This document shows positions 16,660 to 58,440 of a DNA stretch of 64,000 bases, in pieces (positions within the stretch are counted from its first letter, which is position 1; each line of letters opens with the position of its first letter). This stretch comes from Azorinus chamasolen (taxonomy: Eukaryota > Mollusca > Bivalvia > Cardiida > Solecurtidae), in assembly GCA_963576725.1 (NCBI GenBank), contig OY755244.1, positions 82,145,121 through 82,209,120 of the forward strand. The letters are read 5' to 3'. The notes beneath the pieces are model-generated. The model saw only the letters and a list, made by a program, of their open reading frames with translations. It searched no databases and was not told where the DNA came from. The position numbers were made by a program, and so were the translations under genes.

Positions 16660-17560
16660 TTATGTTTGGTAACAAAAGTACAAAAATGAGTCATGCAGGA
16701 AACACCACATACAGAACAAACACTCGCCCGAACAGCAACACAAGGAAACAGCAAATGTACATAACTAGAAAAAACAACAAGAGACACACAAAGACAAAAC
16801 AAACATACAATAGGAGGAAGATGGAAGTACCGCCTTGGAACGGTCAGTGACAAAAGTCACTGGGGGGTTAAACCGGTTTATGGGCGCCCAACCTCACTCT
16901 TATTCCATCCCCACCCTAAAAGACAAACAGTGTAAATAAACGTATCCCCTCTCCGACTAAACTACAACAACCGCGACGGCAAATACAATGGTAAAGTGCA
17001 TGTATAACGAAAAAACATTTAATTGAACATACTGTATCCACCTATCGCTAGTGTACTCAATGATTGAGCTGCAAACAGAGTAACTGTAGAAAAGTAATAA
17101 AGGGTACGACAAAAATGAAATAGCACAGATATCCGACGTTCTCCTTCCATTTCTGGATTTAAGAGGTCGCCTTCATAGAGTACTAAACCTTTCTTGTCGG
17201 CGTACATGCAAAGAGGCCAGCGTGATTGCCAACTGTAACAAGTTTGCCATCGCGGTTGTTGTAGATTAGTCGGAGAGGGGATACGTTTATTTACACTGTT
17301 TGTCTTTTGGGGATGGAATAAACTTGTGTGAGGTTGGGCGCCCAAAAACAGGTTTAACCCCCCCCCAGTGACCTTTTGTCACTGACCGTTCCAAGGCGGT
17401 ACTTCCATCTTCCCCCTATTGTATGTTTGTTTTGTCTTTGTGCGTCGCTTGATGTTTTTATAGTTATGTACATTTGCTGTTTCCTTGTGTTGCTGTTCGG
17501 GCGGCTGTTTGTTCTTTATGTGGTGTTTCCTGCTTGACTTATTCTTGTACTTGATACTGT
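16660..17560. mobile_element. Inverted pair of Naiad-type 3' tails
   Basis: From about 17245 down to 16660, on the minus strand, lie the last ~30 codons of a Naiad-type element (LYEGDLLNPE near 17165) and its 3' untranslated tail. From 17246 to 17560 the plus strand carries a second copy of the tail (GGTTGTTGTAGATTAGTCGG, CACTGACCGTTCCAAGGCGG). The two are joined head to head. Inverted or tandem partial copies are a known habit of Penelope-like elements. The 108-residue minus frame at 17019-17345 spans both and is not a gene. Confidence 0.8.
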
Positions 17561-18146: not shown

Positions 18147-18469
18147 CCTAACCACACCAAATACGTAATAACAGTACAATGTAACAACTCGAGTTAAGAA
18201 TATACAGTCTCTTTATACACCTGCAGTATTCTACAATTATTCCACCACTAAATGGCTGTCAAACAATTTAGGTCAATACACAACGCAGTTTTGATCCTAA
18301 TCAAAACTCAGAAACTAATCTAGATCAAAACTGATTGCAAAAGTTTACCACGATTTAGAAAATAACGTCCCCGAAATAAAATACATGCTGCTACAATAGC
18401 ACTTTTTCTATTCTAGTTAAAAACACACTTAATACCGCTAAATATATAGTTGGAATTCTTACGATTGCG

Positions 18470-19092
18470 GAGGCTTTACAAAATTTTAGTATTAAATTGT
18501 GTCGAAGAGAACATGTTGAGTCTAATGCTCTTTCTAATTGGAAAAAACTAATTTTTGATATAATTGACAAACGCATTTCTTTTTATAGCTCTAACAAACA
18601 CATTCTTCCACCTAAACCTAGAATTTCTTTTAGACATCTTAAAAAGGGTATACAGGATTTCCATTCAAAATACGTTTTTGTTCCTGCTGATAAGGCATCG
18701 AATAATGTGATTATTATTTGACGATTACATTATACCGATGTCTTGAAGCAGGAAATTATTAATACCAAGTCATACATATTAGTAACTACTGAAGAAAATA
18801 CCATCGTTTCAGACCATGTCAAAAAGTGTGAACAACTTGTGTGAAGTGGAAACGATATTAAAATTACATAACATAAACTTCCTACAATGTATTGGTTACC
18901 TAAACTACATAAAAACCATATAAAGCGCGTTTCATTGCAAAATCTAGCTCCTGTACAACTACTAATTTGTCTATACTTTTGACTTCTTGCTTAACGAAGG
19001 TAAAAGAACATGTAAAATTCTACTGTGATAAGACCTATGAAAATTCTGGAATAAATCTCTTCTGGTCTATTAAGAACTCTTCAGAAGTCTAA
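18470..19092 (+). pseudogene. Naiad RT, N-terminal portion (copy 1)
   Basis: CRREHVESNALSNWKKLIFD then FVPADKASNNVIII, a TGA, and RLHYTDVLKQEIIN follow in one frame. MYWLPKLHKN and TSCLTKVKEHVKFYC appear after frameshifts. These correspond residue by residue to copy 2 (51900-52440). They represent the region between the endonuclease linker and the RT fingers/palm. It is broken by at least two frameshifts and by the tail inserted at 19093. Confidence 0.8.
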
Positions 19093-19410
19093 ACAAACTT
19101 ACCGACGCGGTTGTTGTAGATTAGTCGGAGAGGGGATACGTTTATTTACACTGTTTGTCTTTTAGGGTGGGGATGGAATAAGTGTGAGGTTGGGCGCCCA
19201 TAAACCGGTTTAACCCCCCAGTGACTTTTGTCACTGACCGTTCCAAGGCGGTGCTTCCATCTTGCCCCTATTGCGTGTTTGTTTTGTCTTTGTGCGTCTC
19301 TTGTTTTTATAGTTATGTACATTTGCTGTTTCCTTGTGTTGCTGTTCGGGCGACTGTTTGTTCTGTATGTGGTGTTTCCTGATTGACTCATTTTTGTACT
19401 TTTAGGAACA
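19093..19410 (+). mobile_element. Naiad 3'-tail fragment inserted in the RT of copy 1
   Basis: The piece begins GCGGTTGTTGTAGATTAGTC and ends near CATTTTTGTACTTTTAG. It matches the tail ends at 17246-17560 and 21250-21505. It is a 5'-truncated insertion in the same orientation as its host. Confidence 0.8.
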
Positions 19411-20262
19411 AAAGATATCTTGCATCCACTGTAAGCACGTACAATTTTTCTACTTTATACACAACTCTTCCTCATATTTTAATTAAAGATAAACTGACTA
19501 ACTAAATCCAGAAAGTATTTGCCCGGGAACATCATTTCTGGCATGTAATGCTGAAAAAGCTTTCTTTACTGACGAGCAAATGAAATATTACACCAATTGG
19601 ACTTGCTCAGAAGTTTGCGAATCACTAACCTTTCTTTTGGATAACATATTTGTACGTTATGGGAATGCTATATACCGTCAGATAATTGGTATTCCTATGG
19701 GTACGAATTGTGCACCACTTGTCGCAGGTTTGTTTTTGTACTGCTATGAGAGAGATTTCATGTTACGTTTGAATCCACAATCACAAGATGTTATAAAAGC
19801 CTTCAATGAAACTTGTCGATATTTGGATGATATTTTTAACTTAGATAACCCTTTCTTTGATGCTCTGATTCCTACAATTTATCCTAAAGAACTCAAAATT
19901 GAATAAAGCTAACCCGTCCGACAATTACGCAGCTTTTCTTGATCTAGACTTTAAAATTGATAATATAATTATTTCTTCTAAAATATATGACAAAAGAGAT
20001 GATTTTGATTTTAATATTGTAAATTTCCCTCATCTTGACGGAGATGTTCTCCGTGCCCCATCTTACGGGGTTTATATATCTCAACTTATTCGTTTTGCTA
20101 GAGCTTGTTCATCTATTGACGATTTTAACAGTCGAAATCTCATTTTAACTGAAAAGCTGCTTCAGCAAGGATATAGATACCATAAACTAAGAAAAACTTT
20201 CTCTAAATTTACTATCGAAATCTCTCACTTATTGGCAAGTACCAATGTAATCTCAATGAAAA
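19411..20262 (+). pseudogene. Naiad RT palm region (copy 1)
   Basis: Frames at 19580-19906 and 19899-20267 read IIGIPMGTNCAPLVAGLFLY (motif B), CRYLDDIFNLDN (motif C, catalytic YLDD), then AAFLDLDFKID and SYGVYISQLIRFARACSS (thumb). A -1/+1 frameshift lies near 19900. Motif A (STLYTTLPHILIKDKL) precedes at about 19450. This is the reverse transcriptase that would copy the element RNA at the target site. Copy 2 is the near-complete relative. Confidence 0.88.
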
Positions 20263-20805
20263 AGTAGTAAAGTCAAGCAGGCAAAGCCACAAGAAGCAAC
20301 CACCACCAAAACACCGATAGACAGCATGATACACATACACAAACACAGCCACACAACCAAACGCACACTCACACACGAGATGAACACAGAAAACACCAAA
20401 AGACACACAAGAACCAGAGACAAACGTTCCACACAAGAACAAAATCACAAGCACAAAGGCGCAAGGCAAACAAAATGAAGGGTGCCAAAGAGAGTACCGC
20501 CTTGGCACGGTCAGTAGCAAAAACACCACTGGGGGTTTAAACCGGTTTACGGACGTCCTAACCTCACACTTCTCTCAAAGTCACCCTAGCTTTACAAATA
20601 GTGTAAATAAAGGTATCCCCGCTGGACTTACCCACAACATAGACGACGGTGAACACAGGACAACATGTAAAACATAGCATAATAACTGTGACAATCCGTC
20701 AAATATGTACTCAATGACTTTGCTGAAGTCAGAACACCTGCAGGTAAGCCTTTAAGGGCACGACAGGGAAAAAGTAATACATGAGTCTGGTAAGCTCATC
20801 CTGTA
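20263..20805 (-). mobile_element. Antisense 3' tail of the copy-2 Naiad family, inserted
   Basis: The reverse complement matches 53630-54190: GCCGTGCCAAGGCGGTACTC-type, GGTTTAAACCCCCAGTG, TCATTGAGTACATATTTGAC and the GT-rich end. It starts after AATCTCAATGAAAA of the host RT and ends before GCACTTCTGCGACACGG. Confidence 0.88.
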
Positions 20806-21505
20806 TCAAGGCACTTCTGCGACACGGTATTTCACATCCTGAATTTTATGGTGATGTGAATTACAAACTTCGTAAAATTATTGGACATACCCATTTTCTC
20901 ACTTTGTTCATCAAATAGGTTAAAAAATTCATTAAAAAGGGATATGATCCTATAGTACTACAACATACTGCATGCTTGGTTGTGAACCCTTTTACAGTTG
21001 GCAATCACGCTGGCCTCTTTGCATGTACGCCGACAAGAAAGGTTTAGTACTCTATGAAGGCGACCTCTTAAATCCAGAAACGGAATGAGGACGTCGGATA
21101 TCTGTACTATTTCGTTTTTGTCGTACCCTTAATTACTTTTCTACAGTTACTCTGTTTGCAGCTCAATCATTGAGTACACTAGCGATAGGTGGATACAGTA
21201 TGTTCACTTAAATGTTTTCGTTATACATACCACTTTACCACTGTATTTGCCGTCGCGGTTGTTGTAGTTTAGTCGGAGAGGGGATACGTTTATTTACACT
21301 GTCTTTTAGGGTGGGGAAGGAATAAGTGTGAGGTTGGGCGTCCATAAACCGGTTTACCCCCCCCCCCCAGTGACTTTTGTCACTGACCGTTCCAAGGCGG
21401 TACTTCCATCTTCCCCCTATTGTATGTTTGTTTTGTCTTTGTGCGTCTCTTGATGTTTATATAGTTGTATGTGGTGTTTCCTGCATGACTCATTTTTGTA
21501 CTTTT
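20806..21505 (+). mobile_element. C-terminus and 3' tail of Naiad copy 1
   Basis: HGISHPEFYGDVNYKLRKII, then PIVLQHTACLVVNPFTVG-like sequence, then in a shifted frame LVLYEGDLLNPETE and a TGA near 21088. The untranslated tail has GAGGTTGGGCGTCC, TAAACCGGTTTA, CAGTGACTTTTGTCACTG and ACCGTTCCAAGGCGGT. Confidence 0.82.
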
Positions 21506-32259: not shown

Positions 32260-33041
32260 ATGTACGTTATGCCGTATTTACGGCAAATCTGACAGAAACT
32301 CGAGCTCGTTCTTTTAGTAGTAAAGATACCCTTATAAAATGTTTTTTTTCCATCAGTAAATTCTGAAAGGAGGTGACTGAAACATTATCGGTGTGAAATT
32401 TGTAAAATGGAAAAATGGAAAATTTAGGATTGATATTGCAACACTGGTCTAAATGAAAACTTAACGGTAGTTGTCTTGTTGATGGATCTCTGATTTGTTG
32501 GTCATGCACTGTCCTTCTGTTACGTAATTTGTCTCCAGTCTGACCAATATAAAATTCTCTGCACCCATTACAAATGAGAACATACAGTACATTTCTAAAA
32601 GTACAGTATTTTTTCTTTTACATTTTATTGACATTTTTAAGGTCAATCAGCATATATACAAACACATGAAAATCACAATTCATAAAATATCACAGTAATA
32701 AAGAATTATCAATACGATTAAGAATTTAAGAGTAGCTTTAAGCTATTTTTTCTAGATATATTATTCATGGCCAGCTTATGCATGCATACCTTTAACAATT
32801 TAATATTGTACATGTGCTAAGTAATAAATGCTTATGGCCTATGGATAACCCATTAAGCTAAAAACGTATTTCCATGGAATACTTTGTTATTTAAACAGGA
32901 AGAACCTTCATCTATGCAGCTACAAAGTCCACAGTGGGGTTCTTTGCATTTGTTGACTGATGGACGCAATCCAACTTCTGTAAATTCAGATAGGGTTAGA
33001 AGGCGCTTTAAGTTTGGTGGTTGTCGTTTGCCTTTTATCAC
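32260..33041 (-). pseudogene. GIY-YIG endonuclease with Zn-finger linker, broken
   Basis: On the minus strand, PPNLKRLLTLSEFTEVGLRP is followed by KCKEPHCGLCSCIDEGSSC, a cysteine-rich linker (33041-32853). After AT-rich spacer DNA comes NVLYVLICNGCREFYIGQTG then DKLRNRRTVHD and LPLSFHLDQC. This carries the IYV/YIG pair (LYV...YIGQT), the arginine and the CCHH pattern usual in Penelope-like endonucleases. FPFYKFHTDNVS follows near 32370. The enzyme would nick target DNA to prime reverse transcription. Stops and a gap of about 200 bp inside the domain show that it is decayed. Confidence 0.8.
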
Positions 33042-49129: not shown

Positions 49130-49600
49130 ACCTCATTTTCAGCTTATTCGGTTAGATTTGATTTTGCCTGATTCGCACCTTCGACGTCGTTTTCAAACAG
49201 CGTCTAGCCCTGCGAGGCAGTACGGTATCAGCAGACAGACATACCGAATTGCGTCGCCTCTGCCAAGATCGGGCACCCGTTCGGGATAGGAATCTCTATG
49301 TGGGACAACACGTTATCGGGCTGTCCGTTTGCAGTGGGCCAGATGTCATTTCTGTTGGGACAACAGCAGTGGGCTCGAGTTCTATGATGACCATGATGGC
49401 CGCACGCAGGTTTTAGGTGATGGGTAGAACGTTTTTAGGATTGTTGTCTCATGGAGAGGGATATATTTGGGATTTTATGGTTCGATGGGATTATGGGAAG
49501 CAAGCAGGAAAACAAATTTTATTTTTGTAGGCGGCGACATCAATGCTCACGGCTATTTAGACTAGATTCTGAAGCAGTTCCTTTCCTACAAAGATATGGG
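49130..49600 (+). pseudogene. Tc1-like transposase relic
   Basis: Shifted plus frames read LQWARCHFCWDNSSGLEFYD then DHDGRTQVLGDG, and after further decay IFVGGDINAHGYLDQILKQF. These match the middle of Tc1-family transposases (the WARxHxxW segment, and the VGGxxNAxxYxxxIL segment after the second catalytic aspartate). An earlier part near 49230 reads YQQTDIPNCVASA. No intact frame or inverted repeats are visible. It lies inside GST intron 1. Confidence 0.7.
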
Positions 49601-50075
49601 CCTGCTATTTTAATAGCATGAATACGATATATGTTATGGTATGCTACTCTCTTCCCCTAAGTTAGACTATCCTGGAAGTTTTCGGGGGATTCCCGTAGAC
49701 GCCCGGGGTCCCGTATACGCCCGAGGGGTCCCGTAGACTGCCACATAAACATATACTTTACCGCATACGGCAAGTGCGAGATTAATATATGCTCATATTC
49801 CTTCTCTTCCAGGACGCCATATTGAAAAGCTGAGTTGACTACCGCCTTCCAACTTTTTTAATAGTTTGCACCTGCCTAACAAATAAAACATTACATTTAT
49901 CCTGTTCATATTGTGTATTTTGTTTTCTTTGAACTGTGTAATACAATTTATTGTCTTTATTCATTTCTTTTTACTTGTATTAGCGGTTTTAAGTTAGCGT
50001 GGGTTGACACGCCATGCCGCTTGATTGTAAGAGCCAGTCTTCCGGGACATGTGGTCACGTTAAAGAGGAAGTCCC
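49601..50075. other. Unassigned intron DNA
   Basis: A short tandem phrase CCCGTAGACGCCCGGGGT/CCCGTATACGCCCGAGGGGT occurs at 49692-49740. No gene. Confidence 0.4.
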
Positions 50076-50470
50076 TACAATGAACGCATATTTTCAATAA
50101 TATTATAACACTTGGTATGTGTTAGGTTTAATCATTTTTATGAAGATTGTCAATTTCTACTTATATAGAAAAATGCCCCGTGTTACAAAATAAACCGATT
50201 TCATCATTACTAATATTTTTTGTTCTACAACAAAGTATTATTGGCATTTTCTGTTCAAATTTTCACCCGATCCCTACTTTATTTACGTAACAGCCTTTCT
50301 CGTAAGTGGTCGGAGAGACGCGAATAGCGCGAACAGATACGAAACTAAAACCCAGCCCGAATAAAACTGAAAATCGGGGAATAAAACCGGGATCTATGAT
50401 ATCAAAACATGGGTGTTTTGCCATGTTCAACGTTTATTTGATAGGTTTTCTTGCTATATACTACTTTTCA
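50076..50470. repeat. ~360-bp repeat, first copy
   Basis: AACGCATATTTTCAATAATA, AACTTATATAGAAAA-like sequence, AATAAACCGATTTCATC and TTTTCTTGCTATATA correspond in order to 58103-58440. The copy borders the Naiad element and could be part of its 5' leader or an independent repeat. Confidence 0.65.
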
Positions 50471-50482
50471 GTATAAAAACAA

Positions 50483-53400
50483 ATGGGTAATTTCCAATCA
50501 CTACAGCCGTCAGTTTGTATTAAACCTCTAAAATTGTTTTCTGCTTCATCTTTTCATTTTCCTTCTTCTGCTATTAATAACATTTTTCATAATGGACCTA
50601 AAATCGTTCTGTCTCCTTTAAAGCAATCTATCCTTCGTTATAGTAAAGTCCATCTAAATTCACATTATTTTAACAAAAAACATAGGGTGTATCCAATAAT
50701 TACTAAGTGCAATAGTAAGAGGTGTATGTGTTGCAATTTCATTTCTACTAGATCAACAATTAAATCTCTTGTTAATGGTAGAGTGTTTAGTGTGAAGATT
50801 AATTCTGATTTAGACTGAAACTCATCTAATATTATATATGTTCTTACATGAAATGCGCCACGTTGTGGCATTCAATATGTAGATCAGACAGGACGTACTT
50901 TAAAAACTAGGTTTCGTGAACACAGTTACCATTGCCGGATAAAAAAAATACGCAATTTTCTTTACCAACATTTTCGTCATACAGGACATTCTTTCAAATA
51001 TGTTTCTGTTCAACCAGTAGAACAAATTTATTATGATTCTAAAACTACTGGTAGTTTAAAATCTAAAGCTCGTGTTATCACAGAGCTAGACTGGATAAAG
51101 AAGTTACAGACACATTTTCCTTTAGGCCTTAATGATATCATTTCCCAAAGAGGCAACATTTCTAAAGATCCAAGCATCGATATTTTCTCTATATTTTCTA
51201 TTCGAAAACGTAAAAGTAGATCACATGGCAGACGTAGAAATGGTAATATTAAGCGTAAATTACGTCGTAATATGTCTATTCATGATTTACATACCATTTT
51301 AAAACAAACTGGTAAACATTCTATGTTATCTTGTTTATCGTCTTTACCCTTTTCCTGTCTCAAGTCCATAGACGAAGAGGCTGATAAAATCTATATGCGT
51401 ACAGATCCGTTAATTAATACTGCCTCACTTATACAAAGTTACACACAGCATGTTCTTCGTCCACGTATTGATAAAGAATCTGAACATAAAAGACATTTTC
51501 TGAAACTTCAGTTCCTAAATAAAGGTATCGATTTTATTGATATTCAAAGTATATTTCGTGATAAGAATGTAATCGATACTATTCCCAAATATTTCATCAA
51601 CTCTGAATCACCTATCATCTGTTATAAATATGATAAACCTATTAGAAATGTTATTTTTAACTACAATAAAATTGTCTCTGACTTAAATATTGATGTTAAT
51701 ACCCCTATTTCTTGAGATTGTAGCATTTCTAGCTTTTTCTATAAACCAGTTGGTCATGTCATTACTGGTAATTTTGATATCATTAAGGATAAACGTCTCA
51801 GGACCCTCCTAACTAAAGGACCTAAATATAGATTACCTTCCCTTATTGATTTTGACGCTTGTCGAACTCATATTGCGGAAGCTATTCAAGAATTCTGCAT
51901 CAAATGGTGTCGACGAGAACATGCTGATGTTAATGCCCTTTCGGATTGGAAGAAATGTATTTTTGATATTATTGATACGCGTATTACTTTTTACAAATCA
52001 AATTACCATCTTTTACCACCTCGACCTAGAGTTACATTTCGCTATTTGAAGAAAAACATTTCTAATTTTCATTCAAATTATGTTCTTGTTCCTGCTGACA
52101 AGGCATCAAATAATGTAATCATTATTTGAAGATTGTATTATGTTGATGTTTTAAAGAACTGATTCAAAACCTTATATAACAGTTCAAACACCTGAAAAAG
52201 ATATAGTCTCGGAACATGTAAAAATGTGCAATAATTTTAAGTCTGGTCCTAACATAAAACAACATAAAATTTCTACTTTGTACTGGATTCCGAAACTACA
52301 TAAAACCCTTATAAGGCGCGTTTTATTGCCAACTCTAGCTGTTGTACCACTACTAAATTATCTATACTTTTGACGTCCTGTCTTACTACGATCAAAGAAC
52401 ATGTAAAACGCTACTGTGATAAAATATATGAAAATTCTGGTATTAATGTTTTTTGGTCCATAAAAATTTCAAATGATGTTTTAATAAAACTTGAAAATGA
52501 ACAGTATAACATTTCTTTACTGAGCTCTTATGATTTCTCTACACTCTATACTACTCTACCTCACCATCTTATAAAGGATAAACTGATTAAATTAATAGAA
52601 AAAACCTTTGCCAGAGAAAACAAAATGTTCATTGCTTGTAATGTTCAACGTTCATTCTTTTCGAATTCAGAAGTTGAACATTACACAATGTGGACTTGCC
52701 TTGATGTTTGTAGATCTCTTATCTTTCTTTTAGATAATATATTTGTGCGTTATGGAGATACCATATATCGTCAAGTTGTTGGTATACCCATGGGTACAAA
52801 TTGTGCCCCTCTTGTTGCAGATTTGTTTTTGTATTGCTATGAGAGGGATTTTATGCTTAACTTAAAACCTGATACACAGACCGATATTGTTAATGCTTTT
52901 AATAAAACTTCAAGGTATTTAGACGATATTTTGAATTTAGATAATCCTTATTTTGAAACTATGATTTCTTCAATTTACCCAAAAGAACTGTCTTTAAACA
53001 AAGCGAATCAATCTGACATTATAGCTTCATTTTTAGATTTGAATCTTTCAATTACAAATGATAAAGTTTCGTCCAAAATAAAAGAGAATATAAGAGAAGA
53101 TTTTAATTTTAAAATTGTTAATTATCCTTTTCTAGATGGCGATGTGCCACGTTCTACACCTTATGGGGTTTATATTTCTCAACTTATTCGGTTTGCCCGA
53201 GCCTGTTCTTTGCTTGAAGATTTTAACAGACGTAATTTAGTTATAACTGATAAACGTCTTAAGCAAGGTTACAGATATCACAAACTTCGGAAAACTTTTT
53301 CTAAATTTTATGATCGAAATTTACCACTCATTAGTAAATATAATTGCAATCTACGGACGTTACTGCAACAAGGCATTTCTCAACCTGACTTTTATGGGGA

Positions 53401-53634
53401 TGTTATCTACAAACTTAGGAAAATTCGGGGTCATATCCATTTTCATGATTTGTTTATTAAACGCATTAAAACATTTAAAAAGAAAGGTTATGATCCTATT
53501 ATATTGCAACGCACTACATGTTTGGTTATCGACCCTTTTACAGTCGGTAGCTACGATTCCCTCTTTGCTTGCGCGATGACAGGCCGAGGGTAGTACTCTA
53601 TGATGGTATACTCTTAAACCTGGATACAGGATGA
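50483..53634 (+). pseudogene. Naiad polyprotein: GIY-YIG endonuclease - RT, with in-frame TGA codons
   Basis: ATG at 50483. In one frame: KCNSKRCMCC (Zn-finger-like, ~50700), then TGA at 50816 and 50849 flanking NSSNIIYVLT. CGIQYVDQTGRTLKTRFREH follows (YIG motif with G changed to D; catalytic R kept), then ITELDWIKKLQTHFPLGLND (catalytic E). A basic stretch RKRKSRSHGRRR is near 51210. TGA at 51713 makes the first residue of the xDC linker (the CxC motif). WCRREHADVNALSDWKK and VPADKASNNVIII precede TGA at 52127. After frameshifts comes the RT: motif A YDFSTLYTTLPH, motif B VGIPMGTNCAPLVADLFLY, motif C RYLDDILN, and thumb YGVYISQLIRFARACS. The end LLNLDTG and TGA (53632) needs a frameshift at ~53583. 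The protein would nick DNA and reverse-transcribe the element RNA. Confidence 0.9.
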
Positions 53635-54195
53635 GCTTACCAGACTCATGTATTACTTTTTCCCTGTCGTGCCCTTAACGGTTTACCTGCAGGTGCTCTG
53701 ACTTCAGCAAAGTCATTGAGTACATATTTGACGGATTGTCACAGTTATTATGCTATGTTTTACATGTTGTCCTGTGTTCACCGTCGTCTATGTTGTGGGT
53801 AAGTCCAGCGGGGATACCTTTATTTACACTATTTGTAAAGCTAGGGTGACTTTGAGAGAAGTGTGAGGTTAGGACGTCCGTAAACCGGTTTAAACCCCCA
53901 GTGGTGTTTTTGCTACTGACCGTGCCAAGGCGGTACTCTCTTTGTCACCCTTCCTTTTGTTTGCCTTGCGTCTTTGTGCTTGTGATTTTGTTCATGTGTG
54001 GAACGTTTGTATCTGGTTCTTGTGTGTCTTTTGGTGTTTTCTGTGTTCATCTCGTGTGTGAGTGTGCGTTTGGGTGTGTGGTTGTGTGTGTGTGTGTGTG
54101 TGTCATGCTGTCTATCGGTGTTTTGGTGGTGGTTGCGTCTTGTATGTGGCTTTGCCTGCTTGACTTTACTACTTTTCCATTTGTATATTTTAGGT
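53635..54195 (+). promoter_or_regulatory. Naiad 3' untranslated tail with conserved stem-loops
   Basis: Successive palindromes GGACGTCC, TAAACCGGTTTA, CAGTGGTGTTTTTGCTACTG and ACCGTGCCAAGGCGGT are kept in the copy-1 family as GGGCGCCC/GGGCGTCC, TAAACCGGTTTA, CAGTGACTTTTGTCACTG and ACCGTTCCAAGGCGGT. A (GT)n stretch is at 54083-54102. A selenocysteine insertion element was not identified by eye. Confidence 0.6.
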
Positions 54196-54201
54196 ATTTT
54201 T

Positions 54202-56866
54202 GAAGCACGTCAAATGTAGGGACTTCCCCATTAAGGCTAATTGGGATAGGCATTCAAATTGTCTTTCGTGTTGCAAATGTTCGCGTGCCAATCCTTGTGA
54301 TATTTCTAAGGTTTGGAGCGCGGCCATTTGGATGTTTACTCGTCTTCATCCACGAGTTTGAATTCGTCCTCGGACAGTTCACTATCTGGATCCGAAGCGA
54401 GTAAATTACGTGGTAGGAAAGGACAGCGTCGTTCTCCGTACCCCCCCCCCCCCCTCCCCTCAGTCTCGGCGTCGCCGGTCTAGGTCGGGGAGTGAACCCT
54501 CTCGCTCACAGAGCCCACTTTGTCTCGGACCGCTCGCCCACATGACCACCGGTCATTTTTTACCTTGGTCATCGTTTTCCTCCCCCGTTATCTATCGATT
54601 GGGGTTAACTATTTTTGCGCCTTCAGGCGATCCACTCACTCGGGATCAAATACACCTGCCTGTATCTGATTCGGAGGCGAAAGAGGAGGATGTGTATATT
54701 TGCACACGCAGCCAGATTTTTGAGTCTGTTTTCAAAAATCTGGGCGAGGATATGTGTCCTCGACCTTCACCTTCTCAAGTGAAGGGTCCTGACAGTGACG
54801 GAGGCTTTAGTCCGGAAGTTTTTTCCAGACAAAACTCCTTTCAGGGCTCCTACTATACAAGTGCCTATCTCGCAGTCTGTAAGTGCTCGCCTTGCACAAA
54901 TGGAGCCTCACAACCAGACAAGTCTGTCCACTCCCTGGTATGCGCCTGTTCATGTTATAAAGGCTTCGGAGCATACCGGAGTCTTTAGACATCCAGTTCC
55001 CGAGACGTCTTTTGGACTTGATCTGGGTCAGCTTCCACCTCTGGATGCTGACCGTGATCAGGCAAAGCTTTCTATGTCGCCCCGATCGTCTCCTGTAGCA
55101 ATCCAGTTTGGATAGCTAGAGTCCTGGGAACTACGGGAGAGGTATTGTCTCGCAGCTCGATTTCCTCTCGGTCACCTTGTTACAGTTATTAACTGATAAC
55201 AAGAGTACCGCATACGGTACATAATACGCCCACTTGCAAACTTTCTCTGATTCAACATGCCTTATAAGTGTTGACATTTTCTAATCTGTGCTTCAGATCT
55301 TGATTTCCATATTAAGGTGATACTATTTTTTTAAAAAATGAAGTGAATATCTTATTAAATAAAAAAGTTACAGCTAATCCTCATTTTTGCAGATTTTTGT
55401 AAAGTGCAACGGCCATTACTCTGTAAAGACAAACTGAATGAACCTCAAAATAAACTCAGCTTTAAATTTTGTTGCTTAAAACATTTGTGTTAAATTTCAT
55501 TTATATCATTTTAATAGTTTTCCCAGAAAACAACAGACAAACTAAAAGTTGACCGACTAACAAAGCAACGAACACACGAAGTTCAAGGACAATAACTTTA
55601 GAATAAAATGACATATCAAAACCGCCGCAATATATGTGAAAATTCACATTAAGGTTTAACCATATAAAAAAAATTGAAGTAAATATCATTTCAAATGCAA
55701 ATGTTATGGCCATCCTCATATTTGCATATATTTGCATTATATGCAAGTGCCATAACTCCGAAACAACAAGTCAAATGATCCTCAGAATCGACTTGATGCA
55801 TTAAACATGTGTATGAAGTTTCATTAATATCTGTCAAACAGTTTTGCCAGAAAACAGCGGACAAACTATTTGCATATATTTGCATTTTTTAAAGTAAAAG
55901 GGCAATAACTCCGAAACGAAAAATCAAGTAAACCTCATAATCGACTCAGCATCAGATCTTGATGCATTAAACATTTTTGTGAAGTTTCATTAATATCTCT
56001 CAAATAGTTTTCCCAGAAAACAGCGGACAAACTATTTGGATTATTTTTTAAGGACAAGGGCCATAACTCTGAAACGAAAAATCAAATGATCCTCAGAATC
56101 AATTCAGTTTCAGATCTTAATGCATTAAATATTTGTGTGAAGTTTCATTAATATCTCTCAAATAGTTTTCCCAGAAAACAGCGGACAAACTATTTGCATA
56201 CTTTTTAAGGACAAGGGCCATAACTCTGAAATGAAAAATCAAATGAACCTCAGAATCAACTCAGCTTCAGATCTTGATGCATTAAACATTTGTGTGAAGT
56301 TTCATTAATATCTGTCAAACAGTTTTCCCAGAAAACAGGGGACAAACAAAATGTTGACGGACGAACGAACGGACGGACGGACAGGGCCACGACAATGTAC
56401 GACCACCTTTATTAGGTGGGCGTATAAAAAGCAGCGTTCGGACGAGATCATGCGTATTTTGCTTTATCTCGTCCGATCGATCAACAGCCTTGCGGCCAAC
56501 AGTTCTGCAAATCTTGCAGAAATGTTGCGTCGGAGAAGGAGTGAAGTTTTGACTACTTCTCCTTCGGGCTTCTTACTAGCACCATCCCAGAACTGTCTCT
56601 TGACTGCTCCGCTGTCTGCTAGTACGCCCTTTGGTGGTCGAGAGTCGGATGCTCTATCATCCGACAAGGACGATGACATTAGAGCGCTGATTACGTCTAG
56701 GGCTCCAGGTAGTAGGCAACCCTTTAAACGTCCGCTTACAACCCCGCCTGTGCAAGTCCGGGCTGCTAAGAAGAGGAATTCACTTCCTCCTTTTAAGCAA
56801 TCGAAGCCTGGTTTCTCTTCCAGACCTAAAACCTGGAATCGAAAACCAGGTAATAGAACACAGTGA
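54202..56866 (+). pseudogene. gag-like ORF of the second DIRS-like element, interrupted
   Basis: From 54206: KHVKCRDFPIKANWDRHSNC then LSCCKCSRANPC, a Cx..H..C..C..C pattern shared with gag-like N-termini of molluscan and fish tyrosine-recombinase elements. Next is a Ser/Arg-rich region (SRRRRSRSGSEPSRSQSP) after a C-run that breaks the frame at 54440. Then an acidic stretch SDSEAKEEDVYICTRSQIFE and ETSFGLDLGQLPPLDADRD (to 55115). After the nested element the frame resumes at 56410 with RSDEIMRILLYLVRSINSLA and ends in a basic tail (RAAKKRNSLPPFKQ). It is a structural protein by position. Stops and the insertion make it dead. Confidence 0.65.
55198..56430 (-). mobile_element. Tandem-core element, ~158-bp units (ACGCCCAC type)
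   Basis: The end AACAAGAG is followed by the hairpin TACCGCATACGGTA and ACGCCCAC. Units repeat TTTCATTAATATCTCTCAAA, AGAAAACAGCGGACAAACTA and GGCCATAACTCTGAAA. Then (GGACGGAC) at 56360-56385, GTGGGCGT and ATAAAAAG close it. It interrupts the gag of the second DIRS-like element. Confidence 0.85.
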
Positions 56867-56869
56867 AGC

Positions 56870-57985
56870 CCCCCGTACTCAGGACACAGTCCCTAAAGGC
56901 CAACCCCCTCCGTGTCTAGAAATTCCAGCGTGAGCCAGGCTTCTGCACTTCCGGAACATCTTCGTAGATATCGAATCGTTCAAGATGAAAACTACAGCTT
57001 CCATCCGGGCTCCTGCCCAACCTTTTCACTGGGAGGTTTCTTTAGACCTTTCGGACGCATATTTTCACGTCCCTATTCACCCCAGTTTCCGGACACACCT
57101 CCGTTTCGCTTACAATGGCCATTTTATTTTGTATTCAGGGACATCCCTTTCGGAATTTCTACTGCTCCAAGAGCCATAGGGACCTATCTTCGCCTTTGAA
57201 GAAGTTCTGTTCTCCTTCATGGCCTCGATGATTGGCATCTACATCAAGCCAATCGTCAAGCACTGCTACGGGACCTCGAGGCAGGTTGGCAGGAAATTCT
57301 ATCTCTATGTCTTCTTTTAAACTCGGAGAAATCAGATCTCGTGTCGTCTCTACCTTCGACCCATTCAGTTTTATCTGCTGTCTCTCTGGAAGTCTTAACA
57401 CGACAGTCTGTCCGAATCATTCCCATTCGGACAAACCATATAGCTCACCTTCGTTGGTGGCTGGATCTGGTACTTCTCCTGGCGGAAGTCCCTCTGTCAC
57501 CTCCAGAGGCATCGCTTCAACTAGTGACAGACGCCAGTCTATCAGGGTGGGGTGCTCACCTCGAGCCCCTCGGCCTCATGGCATCAGACAGTTGGTCTCC
57601 TTCCGAGACTCAACTCCATGTCAACAACCTCGAGATGCGAGCTGTCTGACTAGTCTGACTAGTCCTGTCTCATTTCAGACAGCACATGTCGAATCAGTGT
57701 GTACTTCTATCGACCGACAACACTGTCGTGCCTCATGTCAAGAAACAAGGGGGTGCTCACTTTCTGTCTCTCTTTTAAGAGACCCAGCTTCTCTTTGCTC
57801 TGTGCTTGGAAATTCAGGTGTCTCTTTTGGCCAAGCCCATCCTGGGCAGACGCAATGTTCTATCAGACGGTCTGTCCCGTCGTCGGCTGATCCAGCTTTC
57901 AGAATGGTCTCTACATCACGAGGTGACAAATCTTATTTTTCTGAGATTAGGTCAGCCGATGGTCGACTTTTCAACAAGACTCAAC
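56870..57985 (+). pseudogene. RT - RNase H of the second DIRS-like element
   Basis: RT motif A SLDLSDAYFHVPIHPSFRTH (about 57040), RFAYNGHF, motif B IPFGISTAPRAIGTYL (57140) and, in a shifted frame, motif C GLDDWHLHQANRQALL (57220-57270) followed by LNSEKSDLVSS. The RNase H part begins LVTDASLSGWGAHLEP (57520), with the catalytic aspartate, and LEMRAV (the glutamate region). Then come STDNTVVPHVKKQGGAH (the second aspartate) and LGRRNVLSDGLSRRR (57850), the usual end. EWSLHHEVTNLIFLRLGQPM and LNHRLPLYISPV follow. Frames change at least five times. It would be the replication enzyme, inactive here. Confidence 0.85.
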
Positions 57986-57987
57986 CA

Positions 57988-58082
57988 TCGGCTTCCTCTC
58001 TATATCAGCCCCGTTCCTCTCTATATCAGCCCCGTTCATCTCTATATGAGCCCCGTTCCTCACTATATCAGCCCCGTTCTTT
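57988..58082 (+). repeat. 21-bp in-frame tandem array at the break of the DIRS-like element
   Basis: Four copies of CTCTATATCAGCCCCGTTC-type units encode PLYISPV each (7 codons). The original single copy is part of the conserved LPLYISPVP segment after RNase H. Confidence 0.9.
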
Positions 58083-58102
58083 CTCGTTTAAAGTGATTGT
58101 CT

Positions 58103-58440
58103 CGACACTAAACGCATATTTTCAGTAACATCATACAACTTGGTATTTTATATGTTCAATCATTTTTATAAAGAGTGTCAATTTGAACTTATATAGAAAA
58201 AATCCTCTGTGATACAAAATAAACAGTTTTCATCGATACTTGTGTTGATTGTTCAACGAAATATTGCCGGCCTTTGTCGAACAAAAGCGCAACCCGAATA
58301 AATAATAACACCAGGTCAATAACACCAGGTCAATAACACCAGGTCAATAACACTTGGACATCAAACACATGAAAGTACCTTCTGCGTTTATTCGGTTTGT
58401 TTTCTTGCTATATATACATGTACTTCTTTTCGTCATATAC
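58103..58440. repeat. ~350-bp repeat, second copy, with a 14-bp expansion
   Basis: It matches 50076-50470 in the same orientation. It differs by an array of CAATAACACCAGGT (about 58306-58355, three to four copies). Confidence 0.7.

Follow-up and report, generated by a model that had tools for sequence, protein, structure and literature searches.

The question raised by this locus is whether a retroelement frame that is closed several times, and each time by the same stop codon, is a dead gene or a gene in which TGA is read as selenocysteine (Sec). The window, by which we mean the whole stretch of 64,000 nucleotides that was analyzed, contains an element (copy 2) whose frame, followed from 50483, is closed four times ahead of a disturbed stretch, at 50816, 50849, 51713 and 52127. 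We could confirm that the stop is TGA each time, and that the first TAA or TAG comes only at 52232, with none through 52231. The stop that follows the fourth TGA, at 52160, lies within the disturbed stretch. Translated with TGA as Sec (U), the frame has U at codons 112, 123, 411 and 549 counted from 50483; both other frames contain dozens of stops over the same stretch. The family of copy 2 is called family 2 below, and a second family, which includes copy 1 of the window, is called family 1. Our analysis indicates that the element is very probably a Naiad-type Penelope-like retroelement, whose endonuclease is N-terminal and whose reverse transcriptase (RT) is C-terminal, and at the same time a selenoprotein gene, a reading drawn from the nucleotide sequence. 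The features used in the argument are the following.

50484..53593, + strand: copy 2, a 5'-truncated, probable Naiad-type element; read-through frame of endonuclease, linker and RT with TAG at 53591-53593; the copy itself is broken
50816..50818, + strand: putative Sec site 1, TGA; codon 112 from 50483 and 137 from the family Met; TGT (Cys) in family 1
50849..50851, + strand: putative Sec site 2, TGA; codon 123 or 148 by the same two counts; aligns with a Cys of the GIY-YIG relative in the window
51713..51715, + strand: putative Sec site 3, TGA; codon 411 or 436; first residue of the U-D-C (CxC) linker; a Cys codon in 2 of 42 copies
52127..52129, + strand: putative Sec site 4, TGA; codon 549 or 574; comes after ASNNVIII, where the RT part begins
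52304..53593, + strand: RT part; 429 codons without a stop, then TAG; motifs GIPMGTNCAPL and YLDD
53592..53654, + strand: SECIS of copy 2; Form 2, with a ministem above the AAA bulge; the basal helix overlaps the TAG stop
18464..21108, + strand: copy 1, decayed, family 1; about the 3' half of the element, broken up by insertions
18719..18721, + strand: TGA of copy 1 at putative Sec site 4
21046..21108, + strand: SECIS of copy 1; Rfam SECIS_1, 29 bits
17122..17184, - strand: SECIS of a third piece (a 3' end); 23.2 bits
32489..32605, - strand: comparator GIY-YIG stretch of another gene or element; has Cys opposite putative Sec sites 1 and 2

The frame of the window copy and its four TGA sites

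One correction concerns the 5' end: the window copy is truncated there, resemblance to the family starts at 50484, and the position of the ATG at 50483 reads CTG in 40 of 42 other family-2 copies. The first in-frame Met of the family, which would be the translation start, lies 25 codons upstream of the beginning of the window copy, and the full family frame counted from it is 1063 codons long. Between about 52155 and about 52302 the frame of copy 2 is disturbed, leaving some 150 bases out of frame; it is back from 52304, after which it continues for 429 codons without a stop to the TAG at 53591. In the window copy the glycine of the YIG-like motif is replaced by Asp; it is Gly in the other full frames read (loci L021, L068 and L072).

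Both window copies lose frame at one and the same short run of A and C that separates PKLHK from PYKARF (52302 in copy 2, 18911 in copy 1), despite belonging to different families. Because of this shared place a programmed -1 frameshift was considered, and it was rejected: no in-frame slippery heptamer is seen, and 21 of the 42 family-2 copies as well as the complete family-1 frame read through the stretch unshifted. The two lesions are private to the window copies or to few copies, and the shared spot, absent from intact copies of both families, may reflect a mutation hotspot or coincidence.

The TGAs had been described as standing at cysteine-like positions. Sites 1 and 2 align with Cys residues of the GIY-YIG stretch at 32489-32605 (- strand; 41 columns, 39% identical), and family 1 has TGT at site 1. 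Site 3 opens a C-x-C motif, which reads U-D-C at 51713-51721 in copy 2 and likewise in the family-1 frame. Site 4, whose TGA is indeed present at 18719 in copy 1, stands in a stretch that is strongly conserved in both families, with Cys being rare there (1 among 100 listed places). The endonuclease has a U/C-x4-C arrangement with a His nearby, and sites 1 and 2 may bind zinc; its single-sequence structure model is too poor to be of use (mean pLDDT of 35). Under a crude point-mutation model that presumes Cys ancestry at the four sites, the chance of all four stops having arisen by Cys-to-TGA change is 1.5e-5 to 5e-5.

Naiads have a CxC linker between endonuclease and RT, a CCHH zinc motif in the endonuclease and an insertion-in-fingers domain, and they are not known to carry a canonical hammerhead ribozyme. 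In our element the endonuclease-like stretch (about 50700-51170) precedes the RT motifs (52700-52950), both in one frame in 21 of 42 copies, and a hammerhead is absent from the Rfam matches of 49500-55500, of the whole window and of L021. The GIY-YIG assignment was made from motifs and from the pairwise match to 32489-32605; a Pfam scan of the element itself gave neither a GIY-YIG nor an RT match. Family-2 copies often lie head to tail in tandem, with a spacing of 4200 nt between the two copies in L021 and of about 4.2 kb between several further pairs (L026 and other genomic places), an arrangement to be expected of Penelope-like elements.

Three further features of the window were recorded as well. 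The comparator stretch belongs to a fragment at 32267-32980 (- strand) that matches Pfam PF01541 with 18.4 bits, under the cut-off of 22.6, and has a Cys-rich stretch about 250 bases upstream; it is possibly another Penelope-like element or an intron-containing host gene. The segments 20331-20811 and 53619-54099 form an inverted pair of 481 bases, 97% complementary: a 3'-end piece resembling that of copy 2 sits within copy 1 in reverse orientation, which looks like a recent insertion of the end of one family into the other. Downstream of copy 2, at 54362-58128, there are long open stretches resembling another retroelement, DIRS-like by eye.

TGA codons in two families and selection on the protein

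The genome (1,723,440,353 bases, 1.72 Gb, in 137 contigs) was scanned with the first 111 residues of the element as the query. The scan gave 3172 candidates, from the best 150 of which, these being the ones scored, 40 stretches spread over the contigs were picked by hand, yielding 42 copies of family 2. If the TGAs were products of random decay, other codons should appear at these sites at a corresponding rate, and this is not seen: TGA is present at sites 1 to 4 in 42, 42, 40 and 42 of the 42 copies, respectively. The only two exceptions among the 168 site-copies, both at site 3, are the Cys codons TGT and TGC. The terminal codon is TAG in all 37 copies that cover it. Half of the copies (21 of 42) have a frame of 1035-1038 codons without TAA or TAG before the terminal TAG and with TGA at the four sites only; the remaining 21 are broken by stops, indels or insertions. 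Over 39,879 family-2 codon cells, with 52139-52303 left out, a stop is the commonest codon only at the four TGA columns and at the terminal TAG, and the stray stops elsewhere amount to 6 TAA, 2 TAG and 2 TGA. Of the patterns made from the exact flanks of the sites, which are biased toward young copies, the site-1 pattern matched 700 places and the site-2 pattern 615; among the 100 listed of each, read by eye, 99 have TGA, the remaining one being TTA at site 1 and TAA at site 2.

These counts establish that the TGA-bearing copies were amplified. They are not counts of independent events, because copies within the family are young and nearly identical (median pairwise identity of 99.2%), and it is family 1 that supplies the independence that near-identical copies cannot. 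A pattern from copy 1, allowing up to two mismatches, was found at 2602 places genome-wide; among 100 of these listed and read by eye, site 4 is TGA in 96 and TTA, TAA, TGT and TGG in one each. We fetched 20 family-1 loci, two of them picked for their TGT (L065) and TGG (L069, an otherwise open stretch) at site 4. One locus, L068, has a complete frame of 1063 codons with TGA at sites 2, 3 and 4 and with TGT (Cys) at site 1. Among the loci that cover each position, site 1 is TGT in 6 of 6, site 2 is TGA in 5 of 6 with one TAA, site 3 is TGA in 16 of 16, site 4 is TGA in 18 of 20 (the others being the two loci chosen for it), and the terminal codon is TAG in 11 of 11. Other stops in the 20 loci (14,148 cells) are 16 TAA, 5 TAG and 4 TGA.

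The proteins of the two families, compared between L068 and the second copy of L021, are 71% identical, with a dN/dS of 0.144 over 1032 codons and a dS of about 1.5. For the four successive segments ahead of, between and behind the TGAs the same comparison, with one copy per family, gives 0.33, 0.08, 0.225 and 0.129; these values are rough because dS, at 1.5 overall and 2.5 in the second segment, approaches saturation. For the RT part of window copies 1 and 2, dN/dS is 0.158 when the codons are read in phase, compared with 1.3 and 1.9 for the two wrong phases. The segment values together with this phase control therefore indicate protein-level selection behind every TGA. Without selection, nonsynonymous changes are expected to outnumber synonymous ones by roughly 3 to 1; the minority codons inside family 2 comprise 347 nonsynonymous and 287 synonymous cases.

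The selection data bear most directly on the idea that the TGA copies are non-coding passengers moved in trans by a helper family that encodes Cys at the sites. Trans-mobilization is commonplace among retroelements, and Cys does occur in single copies, at site 3 or at site 4. We nevertheless consider this very improbable, since the low dN/dS between the families behind each TGA (0.08-0.33) and the minority codons of family 2, well under the 3 to 1 ratio, are signs of a coding element, and a 1063-codon frame with a SECIS is not expected to persist in a passenger. Moreover, among the 64 copies examined, many of them partial and all drawn from the two families sampled, none has Cys at every one of the four sites. 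Two loci reached with a mussel-associated RT fragment (best 150 of 11,893 candidates scored) turned out to be family 2 again and not an all-Cys family; one has all four TGAs plus a private TAG, and the other, covering only site 4, has TGA there.

Ordinary decay of a dead retroelement, with TGAs chancing on cysteine codons, is slightly less probable still. The condition of the window itself speaks for it, with copy 2 truncated and disturbed in frame and copy 1 decayed with mixed stops, as do the few copies that have TAA, TTA or TGG at the sites. However, decay would hardly account for the presence of TGA in 42, 42, 40 and 42 of 42 copies at the respective sites, for three of the four TGAs being common to the second family across a nearly saturated dS, for stops elsewhere that are mainly TAA (22 TAA, 7 TAG and 6 TGA in both families), or for a SECIS being in place.

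The SECIS hairpin at the end of the gene

Inspection by eye had found no SECIS element; one does exist, at 53592-53654, overlapping the terminal TAG. The intervals that had been named for a search, 53635-54195 and 21090-21505, each contain only part of a SECIS, since both begin inside the hairpin. In a permissive Rfam scan with 4227 families, SECIS_1 at 53592-53654 is the sole match in 49500-55500 (24 bits, E 0.3). The two best matches in the copy-1 region are also SECIS_1, at 21046-21108 (+ strand; 29 bits, E 0.011) and at 17122-17184 (- strand; 23.2 bits, E 0.44), and in a scan of the whole window with E up to 10 SECIS_1 occurs at these three places only (E 0.14, 3.2 and 5.5). All SECIS_1 scores, 20.8 to 29 bits with E-values of 0.011 to 5.5, are under the Rfam gathering score of 35. 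SECIS_1 was also detected at the 3' ends of other genomic copies of the element.

The three SECIS sequences of the window fold as expected (z -2.0 to -2.4): above a basal helix and an AUGA/GA internal loop comes an upper helix, 9 positions long with 1-2 of them mismatched, followed by an AAA bulge and a ministem of 4 positions. The Asgard eSECIS-like model, as given in excerpts of PMC11227280, asks for an AUGA/GA quartet, unpaired A's, an upper helix of 7-15 bp in which no more than 2 mismatches are allowed, and a ministem of 2-8 bp. The hairpins of the element agree with that model, as excerpted, in quartet, unpaired A's, helix and ministem, yet score below the Rfam cut-off. By the descriptions in the excerpts of PMC3328465 and PMC11227280, the hairpin is a Form 2 SECIS. 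If the Sec reading is right, full-length copies should carry such a structure, and the core of ATGA, AAA and GA is in fact intact in all 35 of the 42 family-2 copies that cover it.

The pairing itself shows compensating changes. When copy 2 is compared with copies 1 and 3, 5 of 19 pairs are doubly changed, a number reached by 18 of 500 shuffles, whereas sliding the partners by 1-3 columns leaves 0 or 1 such pairs. Of the 500 shuffles in this three-sequence test, 2 attain the score, 59 the paired percentage and 433 the count of pair types. When two sequences from other copies in the genome are added, to make five, 10 cells are doubly changed, which 1 of 500 shuffles attains, and the score lies above that of every shuffle; the counts of doubly changed pairs and of pair types, which 284 and all 500 shuffles attain, are not unusual. 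Because only two families are compared, the compensating changes amount to essentially one split. A home-made SECIS descriptor, written with the SECIS already known, gave five matches on both strands of the window, namely the three Naiad 3' ends plus 23287 and 13731, against a background of 0.53 per 64-kb strand (15 shuffles). A covariance model built from the three window SECIS matched only those three places in the window.

Many genes are known to have one UGA that is read through, CUA after the UGA being a read-through context. It could thus be supposed that the UGAs are passed by leaky termination or by insertion of another amino acid, the hairpin being incidental and its score under the Rfam cut-off, but this is as improbable as decay: four leaky stops in series would leave very little product, the bases after the UGAs are AAC, AAT, GAT, AGA or CGA and never CUA, the codon exchanges at the sites include Cys, and the hairpin combines compensating changes with the typical features that the excerpts of PMC3328465 and PMC11227280 give for a eukaryotic SECIS.

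The Sec reading proposed at the outset is thus supported by four fixed TGAs, by a SECIS in place and by Cys at one site in a related family. The UGAs are almost certainly Sec codons because there is a SECIS at the end of the gene and because relatives swap these codons with Cys. The frame, the fixed TGAs, the SECIS with its compensating changes, the exchange of Cys and TGA, the selection around the TGAs and the amplification of the copies can all be read directly from the genome. In the mechanism that we propose, the hairpin, starting inside the stop codon, would draw in the host Sec machinery during translation, presumably through recruitment of SBP2 and EFSec. Sec would be inserted at each of the four UGAs and translation would terminate at the UAG, giving an endonuclease-RT protein of about 1063 residues. 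In this protein Sec would take the place of Cys in three parts: the endonuclease, at its presumed zinc site, the CxC linker and the beginning of the RT part.

Known relatives and meaning for the element and its host

Craig et al. 2021 (Mol Biol Evol 38:5005) reportedly described Naiads of spiders and clams that independently encode selenoproteins with several selenocysteines. The present element has in common with those reported Naiads the N-terminal endonuclease, the CxC-type linker, the C-terminal RT, the tandem copies and the several Sec; its families with four and three Sec sites, the exchange of Cys and TGA in one genome and the SECIS overlapping the stop may be among the cases described there. 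A full-text literature search gave no paper joining Penelope-like elements or Naiads with selenocysteine or SECIS. None of the matches listed by a broader search, judged by titles and abstract openings, was on Naiad selenoproteins, and the passages covered from part of the literature citing Craig et al. 2021 contain no mention of Naiad.

Selenoprotein genes with a Form 2 SECIS, as described in excerpts of PMC3328465 and PMC11227280, share with the element the AUGA...GA core, the unpaired A's, the ministem above the bulge, an in-frame UGA upstream and the exchange of TGA and Cys between relatives. They differ, within the same excerpts, in that the present element is a retrotransposon in thousands of places, that its SECIS begins within the terminal stop and that its Sec sites include presumed zinc-ligand Cys positions and a CxC motif, not a redox active site. 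Canonical Penelope/Poseidon elements likewise join a GIY-YIG endonuclease and an RT in one ORF and occur in tandem copies, but, according to the portion of PMC11167929 used, their endonuclease is C-terminal; here it is N-terminal, with no hammerhead among the Rfam matches.

Database comparisons gave little else. No relative of the element was found in IMG/VR, no match in phage records and none in NCBIfam. Sequence searches of the PDB with the first part of the element gave no match up to an E of 1, and those with the RT part only four weak unrelated matches (E 0.27-0.61). One of two scans of prokaryote genome contigs found no relative; the other found two RT fragments of a related element that do not reach the TGA sites (L001:4805-5141 and L002:2-85), on MAG contigs of Thiodubiliella, a Bathymodiolus symbiont, and Thioglobus, in which the covariance model of the window SECIS had no match. 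The fragments are presumably animal host DNA binned with bacteria. These mussel-associated relatives, the type of element and the size of the genome all agree with a bivalve as host.

The element is a well-supported addition to the known Naiad selenoproteins and not their founding case. Where UGA is annotated only as a stop, frames of this kind are called pseudogenes, and a repeat with thousands of places is taken for dead; at stake here are 3172 candidates by the first 111 residues and 2602 places by the family-1 pattern. We mention as an unlikely but possible consequence of the Sec reading that the full protein with up to four Sec is made only where Sec insertion is efficient, that retrotransposition of this very abundant repeat is thereby gated by the selenium supply of the host, and that transcripts of thousands of SECIS-bearing copies may compete for the Sec machinery. 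The residence of families with four and with three Sec sites in one genome means that the number of Sec shifts through exchange of TGA and Cys, and the two Sec counts provide a natural experiment on the site-wise gain and loss of Sec. The dependence of the activity of a mobile element on selenium would thereby become testable.
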